64,000 nt of DNA from Paracoccus sp. (in: a-proteobacteria) (GTDB taxonomy: Bacteria > Pseudomonadota > Alphaproteobacteria > Rhodobacterales > Rhodobacteraceae). Made by a program: the position numbers and the translations under genes. Of the stretch, positions 15,324-61,757 are shown piece by piece (within the stretch, counting starts at the first letter, position 1; each line of letters starts with the position of its first letter). The notes below the pieces were generated by a model. That model was not told the origin of the DNA and did not search any database. It saw only the letters and a list, made by a program, of their open reading frames with translations. The DNA is taken from NCBI RefSeq assembly GCF_030604785.1, contig NZ_JAUVVF010000001.1, positions 101,227 through 165,226 of the forward strand, written 5' to 3'.

Positions 15324-16592
15324 ATGCGGATGCGCCGGGTTGTTGTCACGGGATTGGGGATGGTCACGCCTCTGGCCTCTGGGGTCGAAGCGAGCTGGGA
15401 GCGCCTGCTGGCCTGCAAGTCGGGCGCCGGGCCGATCACGCGGTTCGATCCCAAGGACGTGGCGACGAAATATGCCTGCGAGATCCCCCTGGGCGACGGG
15501 ACGGACGGCACCTTCAATCCCGATGACTGGATGGAGCCGAAGGACCGGCGCAAGGTCGATGATTTCATCCTCTACGGCATGGCCGCGGCGCAGCAGGCCG
15601 TCGAGGATGCCGGATGGATGCCCGAGGACGAGGAGGGCCGGCTGCGCACGGGCGTGATGATCGGCTCGGGGATCGGCGGGCTGTCTTCCATCGCCGAGAC
15701 CGCCGTGCTGATCAAGGAGCGCGGGCCGAAGCGGGTCAGCCCCTTCTTCATTCCCGGCGCGCTGATCAACCTGATCTCGGGTCAGGTCTCGATCCGCTAC
15801 GGGTTCAAGGGGCCGAACCATGCCGTCGTCACGGCCTGCTCGACCGGCGCCCATGCCATCGGCGATGCGGCGCGGCTGATCCGCTACGGCGATGCCGATG
15901 TGATGATCGCGGGCGGCGCCGAAAGCCCGATCAGCGAGATCGGGATCGCGGGCTTCAATGCCTGCAAGGCGCTGTCCACCAAGCGCGCCGATGATCCGCA
16001 GGCCGCGAGCCGCCCCTATGACGCGGACCGCGACGGGTTCGTGATGGGCGAGGGCGCGGGCGTCGTCGTGCTGGAGGAATACGAGCACGCCAAGGCACGC
16101 GGCGCGAAGATCTATGCCGAGGTTCTGGGCTATGGCCTGTCGGGCGACGCCTATCACATCACCGCCCCGTCCGAGGATGGCGATGGCGGCTATCGCGCGA
16201 TGGAGGCGGCGCTGCGTTCGGCCGGGCTGACGCCGGACCGGATCGACTACATCAACGCGCATGGCACCAGCACCATGGCCGACACGATCGAGCTGGGCGC
16301 GGTCGAGCGGCTGATGGGGGATGCCGCTTCGGGGGCGGTGATGTCGTCCACGAAATCGAGTATCGGCCACCTGCTGGGCGCGGCCGGCGCGGTCGAGGCG
16401 ATCTTCTGCGTGCTGGCGATCCGCGACCAGATCTGCCCGCCGACGATCAACCTGGACAACCCTGCGGTCACGCCCAGGCTGGACCTGGCGGCCAACGCCG
16501 CCGTGCGCCGCAAGGTCGATGTGGCGCTGTCCAACAGCTTTGGCTTTGGCGGGACCAATGCCAGCCTGATCCTGGGGCGCGTGGCGGAATGA
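15324..16592 (+). CDS. fabF: Beta-ketoacyl-ACP synthase II
   Basis: RRVVVTGLGMVTPLASG; VVTACSTGAHAIGDAAR; NAHGTSTMADT; start codon approximate. Confidence 0.93.
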   Translation: MRMRRVVVTGLGMVTPLASGVEASWERLLACKSGAGPITRFDPKDVATKYACEIPLGDGTDGTFNPDDWMEPKDRRKVDDFILYGMAAAQQAVEDAGWMPEDEEGRLRTGVMIGSGIGGLSSIAETAVLIKERGPKRVSPFFIPGALINLISGQVSIRYGFKGPNHAVVTACSTGAHAIGDAARLIRYGDADVMIAGGAESPISEIGIAGFNACKALSTKRADDPQAASRPYDADRDGFVMGEGAGVVVLEEYEHAKARGAKIYAEVLGYGLSGDAYHITAPSEDGDGGYRAMEAALRSAGLTPDRIDYINAHGTSTMADTIELGAVERLMGDAASGAVMSSTKSSIGHLLGAAGAVEAIFCVLAIRDQICPPTINLDNPAVTPRLDLAANAAVRRKVDVALSNSFGFGGTNASLILGRVAE

Positions 16593-17773
16593 TCTGGCGC
16601 AACCTTGCCTCGAACATGCTGACGCTGCTGCTGGTGCTGCTGGTGGCGGCGGCGGCGGCGGTGGCCTGGGCCAAGCGCGAGTTCAGCGGGCCGGGCATCA
16701 GCGAGGTCGCGCAATGCGTCGAGATCGCGCCGGGCGCCAGCCTGGGCGCGGTCAGCGAGCGGCTGGCGGCGCAGGGGGCGATCTCGAACGCCTATGTGTT
16801 CCGGGCGGGGGCGGATTATCTGGGACGTGCGGGCGATCTGAAATTCGGGAGCTTCCTTGTCCCGCCCCGCGCCAGCATGGAACAGATCGTCGATGTGATC
16901 ACGGCGGGCGGGCCGTCGACCTGCGGGACCGAGATCGTGCTGCGCGTGGGCGTCCGCGAGACCGTGATGCTGCTGCGCGACACCAATCCCGAGACCGGCG
17001 CCTATGAGGAGGTCGCGCGCTTCAACCCGGCCGCAGGCGAGCGCCCGGAGGTGATCGCCGAGGCCGAGCAGCGCGGCGATATCCGCATGTCGCTGGTCGT
17101 GGTCGAGGGCGTGACCAGCTGGCAGGTGGTCGAGGGGCTGAGGGCCGCGACCTTCCTGACCGGCGAGGTGGCCGACATCCCCGCCGAGGGGACATTGGCG
17201 CCCGATACCTATCTGCTGTCGCAGGGCGGCGACCGGGGCGCGATCTTGGCCGAGATGGCCCGGCGTCAGGAGGCGATCCTGGCTGCCGAATGGGAAAACC
17301 GCGCCGAGGGCTTGCCCTATGCCAATCCGCAGGAGGCGCTGATCATGGCCTCGATCGTGGAGAAGGAGACCTCGGTTCCTGCCGAGCGGCCGCAGGTGGC
17401 CAGCGTCTTCGTCAACCGGCTGCGGCAGGGGATGCGGCTGCAGACCGATCCGACGGTGATCTACGGCGTGACCGAGGGCCGGGGCATTCTGGATCGCGGC
17501 ATCCGCCGGTCGGAGCTGGATGCGCGCACGCCCTGGAACACCTATCAGATCGACGGGCTGCCGCCGACGCCGATCGCCAATCCGGGCCGCGCTTCGATCC
17601 GGGCGACGCTGAACCCCGATACGACGGAATACCTGTTCTTCGTGGCCGACGGGACAGGGGGGCACGCCTTCAGCCGGACCCTGGCCGAGCATAACGCCGC
17701 CGTCGCCCGCTGGCGCGAGATCGAGCGGCAGCGCGGCCTGCCCGCCGACAGCCCCGTCCAGACCGACCAGTAG
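16589..17773 (+). CDS. mltG: Endolytic murein transglycosylase
   Basis: IMASIVEKETSVPAERPQVASVFVNRLRQGMRLQTDPTVIYG. Confidence 0.93.
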   Translation: MIWRNLASNMLTLLLVLLVAAAAAVAWAKREFSGPGISEVAQCVEIAPGASLGAVSERLAAQGAISNAYVFRAGADYLGRAGDLKFGSFLVPPRASMEQIVDVITAGGPSTCGTEIVLRVGVRETVMLLRDTNPETGAYEEVARFNPAAGERPEVIAEAEQRGDIRMSLVVVEGVTSWQVVEGLRAATFLTGEVADIPAEGTLAPDTYLLSQGGDRGAILAEMARRQEAILAAEWENRAEGLPYANPQEALIMASIVEKETSVPAERPQVASVFVNRLRQGMRLQTDPTVIYGVTEGRGILDRGIRRSELDARTPWNTYQIDGLPPTPIANPGRASIRATLNPDTTEYLFFVADGTGGHAFSRTLAEHNAAVARWREIERQRGLPADSPVQTDQ

Positions 17774-17797: not shown

Positions 17798-17833
17798 GGC
17801 CTCCGGACCAGTCTTCTGGTGCGGGGGCCTTTT
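17798..17833 (+). terminator. Intrinsic terminator after mltG
   Basis: GGCCTCCGGACCAG-tctt-CTGGTGCGGGGGCC-TTTT. Confidence 0.8.
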
Positions 17834-17883
17834 CATTGCGGCGCGGCACGGGGCCGCGACGGGCCTTGCCGGAGGATGCTGCC

Positions 17884-18324
17884 ATGAAGATGTCGGATAT
17901 GTTTGCGATGCTGGCCGAGAATGCCCGGACCTTCGAGGAGCGGATGAACGCCTTGCAGGCCGAGATGTCGAAGAACAGCGAGAACGCGATGGAGCATGCC
18001 CGTCAGTGGCAGGCCAGCGCGATGGAGCGGCAGGAGGAAGTGAACCGCCAGATCCGCGAGCACATGGCGAATGCCAACGAACAGGTTCGCGAGCAGTGGC
18101 AGAAGATGCAATCCGGCTGGGAGGCGCAATACGAGAAGATGCGCGCCCAGGGCGAGGAGATGCGCGCCGCCGCGATGAAGATGGCGGGCGGCAAGGACGG
18201 GCAGGGCATGGCCGACTGGGCCGAGGCCTATGCCGCGCAGATGGTGGCCTTCGCCCAGAAGGTGCAGGCCGAGGCCGCCGAGGCCATCGCCAAGGCCACC
18301 GAGGCGCGCAGCAAGAAGGGCTGA
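17884..18324 (+). CDS. Phasin-like coiled-coil hypothetical protein
   Basis: 146 aa, Met/Ala/Glu/Gln-rich helical sequence (MKMSDMFAMLAENARTFEERMNALQAEMSKNSENAMEHARQWQAS). Confidence 0.55.
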   Translation: MKMSDMFAMLAENARTFEERMNALQAEMSKNSENAMEHARQWQASAMERQEEVNRQIREHMANANEQVREQWQKMQSGWEAQYEKMRAQGEEMRAAAMKMAGGKDGQGMADWAEAYAAQMVAFAQKVQAEAAEAIAKATEARSKKG

Positions 18325-18458
18325 GAGGGCTTGGAAACGGGCGATTCCGTGCTGGTGTTGCGCGGTTTCGCCTTGCGTGCGCTGGGGGTGTTGCGTGGAT
18401 TAAGGCCTTGTTGTGGATCGCTAAATCGGTGCGAAAGGCTCGCCCCAGGGTTTAGCGA

Positions 18459-18487
18459 TTGACTCACAGAACGGCCTGAAGTAGAAC
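18459..18487 (+). promoter_or_regulatory. Candidate sigma70 promoter upstream of the GTA cluster
   Basis: TTGACT (18459-18464), 17-nt spacer, TAGAAC (18482-18487). Confidence 0.5.
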
Positions 18488-18513
18488 TTACCCATGCTGG
18501 GAGAAATGGGCAG

Positions 18514-18546
18514 GCGGCCGGGGGGTGACCCCTCAGGCCGCTTTTT
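18514..18546 (+). terminator. Strong intrinsic terminator between the candidate promoter and GTA g1
   Basis: GCGGCC-GGGGGGTGACCCCTCA-GGCCGC-TTTTT; outer stem perfect, inner GC pairing. Confidence 0.78.
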
Positions 18547-18590
18547 CATTTCGAGGCTCGTGCGGACAGGACACGAGGCGGGACAGTTGC

Positions 18591-19007
18591 ATGAACGATA
18601 TGGAATGGGGCGGCGCGGGGGAACCCGTGGGACCTTTCATGGCCGCAGGGCAGTCCGAGGCCGGGCCGGCCGACGAGCTGCGCGCGGCCGGAGCGCCAGT
18701 GGACGAGGACGAGATCGCCGTCGCCCAGTGGTTGTTCTGGGATTACGTCAAGGATCTGCGCCAGCATCAGGCCGAGCTTGTCTCGGCCCGAGGGGGCGAG
18801 ACCGATCCGGCCCGGCTGAAAAAGGCGGTGGATGCGGCGCGCACGGTTCGTGACGCGATCCAGCTTCTGATGGTGGAAAGGAACAAGGTTGACAAACTTC
18901 GCAAGGAGATCGCGGGCGGGGTCGCAGGAGGCTGCCTTGACCTTGACGCCGCACGAGACGAGATCGGGCGCCGCCTGGCTTGCCTCCGCCGAGCCGGAGC
19001 AGGTTGA
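18591..19007 (+). CDS. GTA g1, small terminase-like
   Basis: Position immediately upstream of and overlapping the large terminase; MNDMEWGGAGEPVG...; acidic/helical. Confidence 0.6.
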   Translation: MNDMEWGGAGEPVGPFMAAGQSEAGPADELRAAGAPVDEDEIAVAQWLFWDYVKDLRQHQAELVSARGGETDPARLKKAVDAARTVRDAIQLLMVERNKVDKLRKEIAGGVAGGCLDLDAARDEIGRRLACLRRAGAG

Positions 19008-20304
19008 GGAATTCCTGGGCGGGCTGTCGGACAATGCGCTGATGGCGCTGCCCTGGCTGTTCGAGTTCTGGGCCTTGCCGCACCAGCTGCCCCCCGAGGG
19101 TGACTGGAAGTCATGGGTCATCATGGGCGGGCGCGGCGCGGGCAAGACCCGCGCGGGTTCGGAATGGGTGCGGCGGATGGTCGAGGGGCCGTCCGCCGCG
19201 GCGCCGGGGCAATGCCACCGCGTCGCGCTGGTGGGCGAGACATTTGATCAGGTGCGCGAGGTGATGATCTTCGGCGAGTCGGGCATTCTGGCCTGTTCGC
19301 CGCCCGACCGCCGCCCCGTCTGGGAGGCCGGGCGCAAGCGTCTGGTCTGGGCCAATGGCGCGACCGCGACCTGCTATTCGGCGCATGAGCCGGAGGCGCT
19401 GAGGGGGCCTCAGTTCGATGCGGCCTGGGTGGACGAGCTGGCCAAGTGGAAGAAGGCCGAGGATGTCTGGGACATGCTGCAGTTCGCGCTGCGTCTGGGC
19501 GAGCATCCCCAGCAGGTCATCACCACCACGCCGCGCAATGTGGGCGTGCTGAAGCGGATACTGGGCAATGCCTCGACCGTGGTGACGCATGCGCCGACGG
19601 ACGCCAACCGCGCCTATCTGGCCGAGAGCTTCCTGGCCGAGGTCGAGGCGCGCTATGGCGGCACGCGGCTGGGTCGGCAGGAGCTGGAGGGCGTGCTGCT
19701 GGATGATGTCGAGGGTGCGCTGTGGACCACCCCCATGCTGGAGGCGGCCCGGCAGGACGAGGCACCCCGGCTGGACCGGATCGTCGTGGCCGTCGATCCG
19801 GCCGTGACCGGGGGCGCGGGCAGCGACGAATGCGGGATCGTGGTGGCGGGCGTCGAGATGCGCGGCGAGCCGCGCGACTGGCGGGCCTGGGTGCTGGAGG
19901 ATGCCAGCGTCCGTGGCGGCCCGACCGACTGGGCGCGTGCCGCCATCGCGGCGATGGAGCGCCACGGCGCCGAGCGTCTGGTGGCCGAGGTCAATCAGGG
20001 CGGCGATCTGGTCGAAAGCGTGATCCGGCAGATCGACCCTCTGGTGCCGTTCCGGGCGCTGCGGGCCTCGCGCGGGAAGGGTCTGCGGGCCGAGCCGGTG
20101 GCGGCGCTCTACGAGCAGGGCCGCATCCGGCATCTGCGCGCGGGCAATCTGGGCGCGCTGGAGGACCAGATGTGCCAGATGACGGTGCGCGGCTACGAGG
20201 GGCGGGGCAGTCCTGATCGGCTGGATGCGCTGGTCTGGGCGATGCACGAGCTGATGATCGAGCCCGCCGCAAGCTGGCGGCGACCGCAAATGCGGCGGCT
20301 TTAG
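18889..20304 (+). CDS. GTA g2, large terminase / DNA-packaging ATPase
   Basis: WVIMGGRGAGKTRAGSEWVR Walker A; nuclease domain VVAVDPAVTGGAGSDECGIVVAG; true start may be internal. Confidence 0.92.
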   Translation: MTNFARRSRAGSQEAALTLTPHETRSGAAWLASAEPEQVEEFLGGLSDNALMALPWLFEFWALPHQLPPEGDWKSWVIMGGRGAGKTRAGSEWVRRMVEGPSAAAPGQCHRVALVGETFDQVREVMIFGESGILACSPPDRRPVWEAGRKRLVWANGATATCYSAHEPEALRGPQFDAAWVDELAKWKKAEDVWDMLQFALRLGEHPQQVITTTPRNVGVLKRILGNASTVVTHAPTDANRAYLAESFLAEVEARYGGTRLGRQELEGVLLDDVEGALWTTPMLEAARQDEAPRLDRIVVAVDPAVTGGAGSDECGIVVAGVEMRGEPRDWRAWVLEDASVRGGPTDWARAAIAAMERHGAERLVAEVNQGGDLVESVIRQIDPLVPFRALRASRGKGLRAEPVAALYEQGRIRHLRAGNLGALEDQMCQMTVRGYEGRGSPDRLDALVWAMHELMIEPAASWRRPQMRRL

Positions 20305-60602: not shown

Positions 60603-61757
60603 ATGACGATATTGACCGGTGATTTCGCACTTGGCGCCAGCGCGGCGGAGCACCGTGGGGATGGCGCTGCCGCATTGTCCTGCCCGTCCGCGCCGGGCGA
60701 CGAGCTGGCGCTGGACGCGCAGCTTTACCTGCGCCATGTCGAGAACGGCGAGGCGATCCGCGCCCTTGCCCGCGAGGCGGGCTGCCACGCCTCGACGATC
60801 CTGCGCCGCATCCGCCGGTTCGAGGCCCGGCGCGACGATCCGCTGGTCGATGGCGCGCTGACCAAGACAACCGACGCCGCGGCCTTCGACGAGAGGCAGG
60901 CCCTGCGGATCCTGCGCCGCCTGTCCGAGTCCGGCGCGGTGATGGTCTCGGCGGCGGGGATGGACAAGGCCATCGTCACCCGCGACGACATCCGCACCGC
61001 CGTCCTGGACCGCGCGCTGGCCGAAGAGATGGCCCTGCGCGGTTGGGTGGTGCAGTCGGGGCAGGGCGGGCGGCTGGCGCGCTATGTGCTGGCCCCGGCG
61101 GGGCGCGACGCGCTGCGCCGGATGCTGCGCTCGCCGCGCCAGCGCGATGCGGTGCCTGGGCCCGGCGCTTTCTGCGATGCCCGCCCGGTCGAAAGCGCGC
61201 GCCCCGAAAGCGCCATGGCCGAGGCGCCCGCCGCCTTTGATCATGCCGAACGCCACCGCGTCTGGGAGGATCGCGTCATCCGCGACCCCGAGGATGACAG
61301 CCGCCAGCGCGTGCGGGTCAACATCGCCGAATCTCCCCTGCTGCTGCTGGCGCGGCGGCGCGACGGCAATGGCCAGCTGTTCCTGACGCCCGGCATGGTG
61401 GCGGCGGGCGAACGTCTGCGAGAGGATTTCGAGATGGCGCAGATGGGGCCACGCGTCACGCAGAACTGGGACGGGTTCATGACCGCGGGCATCGACGTCT
61501 CGCGGCAGGGCGGCGGCGGGCATCGCGGTGGCTCTGACAGCGCACGTGACCGGGTGGCGCTGGCGCTGCGTGATCTGGGGCCGGGCATGGGAGATATCGT
61601 GCTGCGCGTGTGCTGCTTTCTCGAGGGGATCGAGACGACGGAACGGCGGCTGGGCTGGTCTGCGCGGTCGGGCAAGATCGTGCTGCGCCTGGCGCTGATG
61701 CGGCTGGAGCGGCACTATGCCGAGACCTATGGCAAGGGGGCGCCGCTGATCGGTTGA
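60603..61757 (+). CDS. gafA: DUF6456 HTH protein, candidate GTA activator GafA homologue
   Basis: N-terminal HTH YLRHVENGEAIRALAREAGCHASTILRRIRRFEARRDDPLVD; C-terminal NIAESPLLLLARRRDGNGQLFLTPGMVAAGERLREDFEMAQMGPRVTQNWDGFMT. Confidence 0.65.
   Translation: MTILTGDFALGASAAEHRGDGAAALSCPSAPGDELALDAQLYLRHVENGEAIRALAREAGCHASTILRRIRRFEARRDDPLVDGALTKTTDAAAFDERQALRILRRLSESGAVMVSAAGMDKAIVTRDDIRTAVLDRALAEEMALRGWVVQSGQGGRLARYVLAPAGRDALRRMLRSPRQRDAVPGPGAFCDARPVESARPESAMAEAPAAFDHAERHRVWEDRVIRDPEDDSRQRVRVNIAESPLLLLARRRDGNGQLFLTPGMVAAGERLREDFEMAQMGPRVTQNWDGFMTAGIDVSRQGGGGHRGGSDSARDRVALALRDLGPGMGDIVLRVCCFLEGIETTERRLGWSARSGKIVLRLALMRLERHYAETYGKGAPLIG

Follow-up and report, generated by a model that had tools for sequence, protein, structure and literature searches.

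A control region related to the one studied here has been described for the gene transfer agent (GTA) of Caulobacter. GafZ of this organism binds between the -10 and -35 elements and, together with NusA, NusE and NusG, lets RNA polymerase (RNAP) pass a terminator (PMC11150451). This terminator, terGTA, consists of three 150-bp GC-rich repeats located downstream of the first gene, gtaT, after a leader of ~250 nt (PMC11150451). In Rhodobacter capsulatus, GafA binds a region 76-125 bp upstream of g1 that covers the -10 element and the transcription start site (TSS) (PMC6363796). A fragment spanning -35, -10 and TSS is bound by the C-terminal domain of GafA and fragments on both sides of it by the N-terminal domain; the protein was reported to be an activator that contacts the omega subunit of RNAP (PMC9638019). 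Searching the open text of PubMed Central for a leader or for antitermination in Rhodobacterales GTAs turned up only the Caulobacter paper, which agrees with the opinion of the first-pass annotation that a leader of the kind reported below has not been described before.

We analyzed a stretch of 64,000 nt from a Paracoccus genome, hereafter referred to as the window. As the TerL protein of P. bogoriensis BOG6 (L032) is 99% identical to that of the window, the genome appears to be close to P. bogoriensis. The window harbors an RcGTA-type cluster that is headed by the leader and has the terminase genes TerS and TerL as its first genes. The first cluster gene, g1 (18591-19007, plus strand), was assigned to the GTA terminase small subunit based on its translation, which starts at ATG 18591 directly before TerL; no Pfam match for g1 was obtained. 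The terminase large subunit is encoded by g2 (18889-20304, plus strand), as identified by a Terminase_6N/6C domain match. At 60603-61757 (plus strand), where the first-pass annotation had placed gafA, an N-terminal HTH domain (weak match) and a C-terminal DUF6456 domain were found. By these matches the protein has the domain composition of GafA and is the candidate activator/antiterminator. Upstream of the cluster are located mltG (16589-17773) and, between mltG and the GTA promoter, a phasin-like gene (about 17884-18324, in the stretch 17836-18324), both named from reading of their translations. The gene next to the GTA promoter on its upstream side appears to be mltG itself in several other genera. 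The window also contains a cobalamin riboswitch at 2023-2221 (Rfam RF00174, 119 bits).

The putative GTA promoter on the plus strand comprises the -35 element TTGACT (18459-18464), a spacer of 17 bp (18465-18481) with the conserved motif (C)GMACGGYC, and the -10 element TAGAAC (18482-18487). These elements had been proposed by the first-pass annotation, and they are present in the sequence and conserved in relatives. A consensus promoter scan missed TTGACT-17-TAGAAC because the scanner requires a T at position 6 of the -10 element; the support for this predicted promoter comes from conservation. In a profile of 79 orthologous loci (L067 and L107 were left out by the anchor pattern but included in later counts), the TTGAC positions of the -35 element were each conserved to 96-99%. 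The information content per column, ~0.1 bit upstream, reached 1.7-1.9 bits within TTGAC, 1.3-1.9 bits within the spacer core GAACG, 1.4-1.7 bits for positions 1-4 of the -10 element, and close to 2 bits along much of CATGCTGGGAGAARTGGGCAAGCGGCC. The predicted +1 and the conserved initial transcribed sequence ATGCTGGGAGAAATGGGC occupy 18494-18511 (plus strand; family consensus CANGCTRGAAGAARTGGGC). The high conservation of the initial ~18 transcribed bases, CANGCTRGAAGAARTG, and of the spacer motif GMACGGYC was not part of the first-pass annotation. The distance from -35 to +1 was 33-39 nt in 83 of 84 further genera. Both in the window and in locus L203 the predicted +1 is located ~94-97 bp upstream of g1, so that the bound R. 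capsulatus fragment would cover the spacer, the -10 element and the initial sequence. The spacer motif is thus a candidate binding element for the GafZ-like C-terminal domain (DUF6456) of GafA.

Within the window's genome, promoter plus spacer is unique: a single site with one mismatch occurs, all others have three mismatches and are fewer than in the control, and no other promoter of the GTA-leader type was found above chance. Pairing alone does not explain the near-invariant first 18 nt. A leaderless mini-ORF beginning at ATG 18494 was rejected. The codon in this position is ATG in 42, AAG in 33, AGG in 5 and ACG in 2 out of 82 genera, and as ATG is replaced in half of the genera, the initial sequence is not a coding start. 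No conserved short ORF of the kind expected for a leader-peptide attenuator was found either, with ATG in only 42/82 genera and loop lengths that shift the frame. With regard to the sigma-dependent, promoter-proximal pause of Q-type antitermination loci, a -10-like TAGAAG occurs inside the initial transcribed sequence of 31/82 genera; the corresponding sequence in the window is TGGGAG. Further upstream, at 18354-18401 of the window, there are two direct repeats, GGTGTTGCGYGGWTT, spaced 33 nt apart. GTGTTGCG recurs upstream of the GTA promoter across many other Paracoccus loci, and GTGTTGCC is located upstream of gafA (60439). The repeats upstream of the promoter are a candidate site for the N-terminal HTH of GafA or for a bending protein. 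An AACCNNNGGTTTAG-like motif abuts the -35 element in the window (18441-18459) and in the Paracoccus loci L033-L090; it is moderately conserved in Paracoccus and weakly elsewhere in the family.

The promoter is followed on the plus strand by a predicted intrinsic terminator (18513-18546), identified by folding and in orthologous leaders. It is formed by a GC hairpin (18513-18542) and a T5 run (18542-18546), confirming the strong hairpin and T-run that the first-pass annotation had noted before g1 at 18591. The fold of 18493-18546 has a minimum free energy (MFE) of -29 kcal/mol with a z-score of -3.24 against dinucleotide shuffles, and a stable GC-rich hairpin followed by a U-run is the structure of a rho-independent terminator. 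The terminator begins ~20 nt after the predicted +1 and before the first gene. Six plus-strand terminators in the 64-kb window scored above the cut-off. The leader terminator ranks second among them, after the separate terminator of mltG itself (17798-17829, plus strand); no terminator above the cut-off is located inside the GTA cluster and no other one on the plus strand between 18.6 and 36 kb. A bidirectional terminator was rejected since the minus-strand tail lacks a T-run. The small hairpin CCCAT/ATGGG (18491-18510), which the first-pass annotation had listed as a leader feature, was discarded. As it begins upstream of the likely +1 and its 5' arm varies among relatives, it is unlikely to be a genuine element.

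A hairpin of at least 6 bp with a dG of -8 or lower and a T-run directly after it was found in 180 of 182 orthologous, closer leaders versus 23 of 1271 upstream 70-mer controls (1.8%), which excludes chance. In nearly all leaders the terminator starts at a fixed position, +15 to +22 relative to the start of GTA transcription. About 95% of the detected leaders have kept the terminator. A few genera (L257, L311, L317, L346) retain promoter and GTA genes with a weak or missing terminator, which shows that some genera can do without it. L257 (G410) and those genomes of its genus that lack a model match have kept the promoter and GCTAGAAGG, with only a 4-bp hairpin ahead of TTTT; here, the strong terminator has been lost naturally.

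A terminator in this place could also serve as an insulator that ends transcripts arriving from upstream (from mltG, or from the phasin-like gene in Paracoccus) and silences the GTA genes, with the promoter being incidental or activated by GafA without antitermination. Between the phasin-like gene and the leader there is no further strong terminator, so that the transcript of this gene, too, probably ends at the leader terminator. However, the natural place for an insulator is upstream of the promoter, the fixed position at +15 to +22 would not be needed, and another terminator is already present upstream of the -35 element in 45/182 loci (13/17 in Rhodobacter). We consider insulation an improbable explanation of the leader, and ending the transcript of the upstream gene is unlikely to be the main role of the terminator.

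A comparison with relatives bore out the promoter followed at once by a terminator that the first-pass annotation had proposed at the head of the GTA cluster, and showed this layout to be conserved in the lineage. All 80 named loci retrieved through their TerL contained the element, as does the window, in the same order and place. These loci belong mostly to Paracoccus, but also to Thioclava, Sinirhodobacter, Sedimentimonas, Rhodobacter maris and others. A profile trained on the named loci alone matched 83 of 88 one-per-genus TerL loci at iteration 0 and 84 after iteration. Of 40 additional genera, chosen as more divergent, 32 yielded a match, 28 of these with a terminator, and 8 had no match. 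The leader thus occurs in 116 of the 128 Rhodobacteraceae genera sampled (84/88 and 32/40, one locus per genus). It was also found in 17/17 GTA-bearing genomes of the genus Rhodobacter, to which R. maris belongs and among which R. capsulatus should be.

With a covariance model of the leader, 36 of 37 Paracoccus genomes gave exactly one match each, located just upstream of TerL wherever both were on one contig; the exceptions were the fragmented G034, with leader and TerL on separate contigs, and G021 and G031, which have no full TerL. Strict filters left matches in 96 of 150 genomes drawn from the order, each of them with a single copy except for one genome, and 24 genomes of other families yielded one weak match (E 0.007). 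The leader is still in place in G021 (L248) and G162 (L249), where the GTA cluster has collapsed to g1 and the start of g2, with the end of the last genes joined on. The collapsed cluster of L249 reads as one 835-aa frame, and in G021 gafA is interrupted as well. In another Paracoccus genome, the TerL frame contains an in-frame TGA (G090:C1:705309-706721). A gafA homologue was detected in 121/121 Paracoccus genomes. Every leader-bearing genome tested carries gafA, but genomes without a GTA do so as well and, therefore, the co-occurrence of leader and gafA is uninformative.

Two further conserved helices were identified on the plus strand. In the outer stem (18503-18552), which the first-pass annotation had overlooked and which is predicted by folding and covariation, GAAATG (18503-18508) pairs with CATTTC (18547-18552) and thereby encloses the terminator and its U-tract. 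The stem displays compensatory changes, with 92.8-94.7% of cells paired. A second hairpin, CTCGTG...CACGAG (18557-18577), located between terminator and g1, was recognized by its pairing across relatives, with 95.6% of cells paired in a Paracoccus-rich set and 83.7% family-wide. Covariation was tested for the outer stem, the terminator stem and the second hairpin. The score was 0.186 for 60 sequences, compared to 0.131 for shuffled and at most 0.070 for slid controls, and 0.254 for 109 family-wide sequences, compared to 0.176 and at most 0.097, respectively, with controls that leave some relatedness. In the family-wide set, 86 cells were changed on both sides versus 26 expected, a comparison from which relatedness is not fully removed. 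The 3' arm of the outer stem is located beyond the U-tract and, therefore, only RNA that extends past the terminator can form it. The many G-U pairs point to selection on RNA rather than on a DNA palindrome. Since the outer stem closing across the U-tract covaries, the read-through RNA itself appears to be under selection, which argues that read-through happens and matters.

These structures bear on three other views of the leader. It might be an independent trans-acting sRNA of ~53 nt that has its own promoter, a conserved unpaired 5' seed and a terminator hairpin. Both the near-invariance of the first 18 nt and the terminator hairpin at the 3' end are common features of sRNAs, and late promoters of the lambda type also yield a short terminated RNA. 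However, the covarying partner strand of the outer stem lies beyond the terminator and would be absent from the terminated sRNA. A trans-acting role also leaves the strict position and single copy at the head of the GTA cluster, remnants included, unexplained, and there is no Rfam family; no Rfam score for the leader exceeded the gathering threshold. We regard an sRNA as very unlikely. Slightly less probable still is attenuation by RNA alone, in which the leader would sense a ligand, a ribosome or an RNA-binding protein through a switch between terminator and antiterminator folds. The leader is conserved, structured and equipped with a terminator, and the outer stem uses nucleotides just 5' of it. 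However, the terminator is nested within the outer stem and the two can form together instead of excluding each other, no competing antiterminator appeared in the MFE or centroid structure, and neither a conserved ORF nor an Rfam match was found. A third and rather tentative idea, which we think doubtful but worth more than the other two, is that the leader RNA is a conserved cis-acting antitermination element whose near-invariant initial sequence and outer stem may help to load or hold GafA and Nus factors on RNAP; it would be a GTA-specific, previously undescribed counterpart of nut/put sites. The sequence GCTCGTG was considered as a BoxA-like site and rejected as too far from boxA to claim.

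Among the TerL loci of other alphaproteobacterial families examined, the full Rhodobacteraceae leader was absent. One of them, L268, contains TTGACCCCAGAACGGTCC...CACGCTCAAGAATTGGG upstream of g2; its spacer, GAACGGTCC, is that of the Rhodobacteraceae leader and its initial sequence is similar, but it has no terminator. This suggests that promoter and initial sequence may be the older part. Traces of both occur in L258, and in L261 and L266 CACGCTGAGAG is followed by a terminator. Layouts of a promoter followed by a terminator were seen by eye in L265, L275, L293 and L294. The upstream regions from other families contained 14 plus-strand versus 4 minus-strand terminators, and the reverse strand of these loci gave no match below E = 1. 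Leader-like layouts beyond the Rhodobacteraceae are suggestive only. The Caulobacter ZBE palindrome had only chance-like matches in the other-family loci, mostly in coding DNA, and the phage TerL search yielded no phage terminase above 60% identity.

With a probability of roughly 0.64, we propose that the leader controls the GTA late operon, which would be off by default until GafA-dependent antitermination occurs. A sigma70-type promoter would start RNA at ~18494, and the intrinsic terminator would halt unmodified RNAP after ~53 nt, which would keep the operon off even when the promoter fires. GafA would bind the promoter, with its GafZ-like C-terminal domain at the spacer element and additionally with its N-terminal HTH, and would load onto the early transcription complex, probably aided by the conserved initial transcribed sequence. 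The complex would thereby become terminator-resistant and proceed into g1-g15, and the leader of the read-through RNA would refold into a longer hairpin. GafA loading and passage of the terminator at +20 to +53 is favored because Caulobacter GafZ antiterminates, GafA corresponds to GafY plus GafZ, and the binding in R. capsulatus covers spacer, -10 and initial sequence. By analogy with Caulobacter GafZ and lambda Q, GafA-dependent antitermination appears to be the best explanation, and the GTA genes probably remain silent unless RNAP is allowed past the stop by a helper protein, which is most likely GafA.

Alternatively, GafA could be purely an activator of initiation, with the terminator setting a level of partial constitutive attenuation. 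The published role of R. capsulatus GafA as an activator contacting RNAP omega (PMC9638019) and the several genera that manage without a terminator are in line with this. However, the C-terminal domain of GafA is a homologue of Caulobacter GafZ, a protein with demonstrated antitermination activity (PMC11150451), and retention of the terminator in most leaders argues for a switch. Activation alone is, hence, unlikely to account for the leader.

Compared to described systems, the proposed antitermination switch shares with the GafYZ-controlled PgtaT/terGTA of Caulobacter crescentus the GTA class, homologous regulator domains, a regulatory element between -35 and -10 (a candidate in the window) and a terminator that has to be passed before the cluster is expressed. 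In contrast to terGTA, which follows gtaT, the Paracoccus window has a single compact intrinsic terminator ahead of the first gene. The RcGTA promoter of R. capsulatus has its -35, -10 and TSS in the same position relative to g1 and is bound by GafA, whereas a terminator or structured leader is not mentioned in the two R. capsulatus GafA papers (PMC6363796, PMC9638019). The late promoters controlled by lambda Q and phage 21 Q (qut, tR') have the same layout of promoter, spacer binding element (a candidate in our case), short leader, intrinsic terminator and phage-type operon downstream. The late leader of lambda differs in its length of ~194 nt. In addition, GafZ has no sequence or structural similarity to Q (PMC11150451). 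According to PMC11150451, AlpA of Pseudomonas aeruginosa is an antiterminator loaded from a promoter-near element, but belongs to another protein family and acts on another target operon. The first-pass description of the leader as lambda-late-like and antitermination-ready stands with regard to anatomy (the spacer element, a terminator from +20, a GafA with a GafZ-type domain and the published binding of the GafA C-terminal domain to the matching R. capsulatus fragment), while termination and read-through are what we infer from it. We observed the parts of the leader, their conservation and fixed spacing, the single copy, the GTA linkage and the covariation at the RNA level; the element is real and conserved, and most likely switches the GTA operon in a Q-like, default-off manner.

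GTAs are widespread gene-transfer machines of the Alphaproteobacteria. For GafA of the Rhodobacterales, binding and omega contact were already known, and the leader turns the step it controls into a direct test of terminator passage and offers candidates for the GafA site at the nucleotide level. In most Rhodobacteraceae it constitutes an undescribed conserved leader RNA that occurs once per genome. The leader is, furthermore, a DNA signature of GTA clusters and their remnants, and also marks where control was lost.
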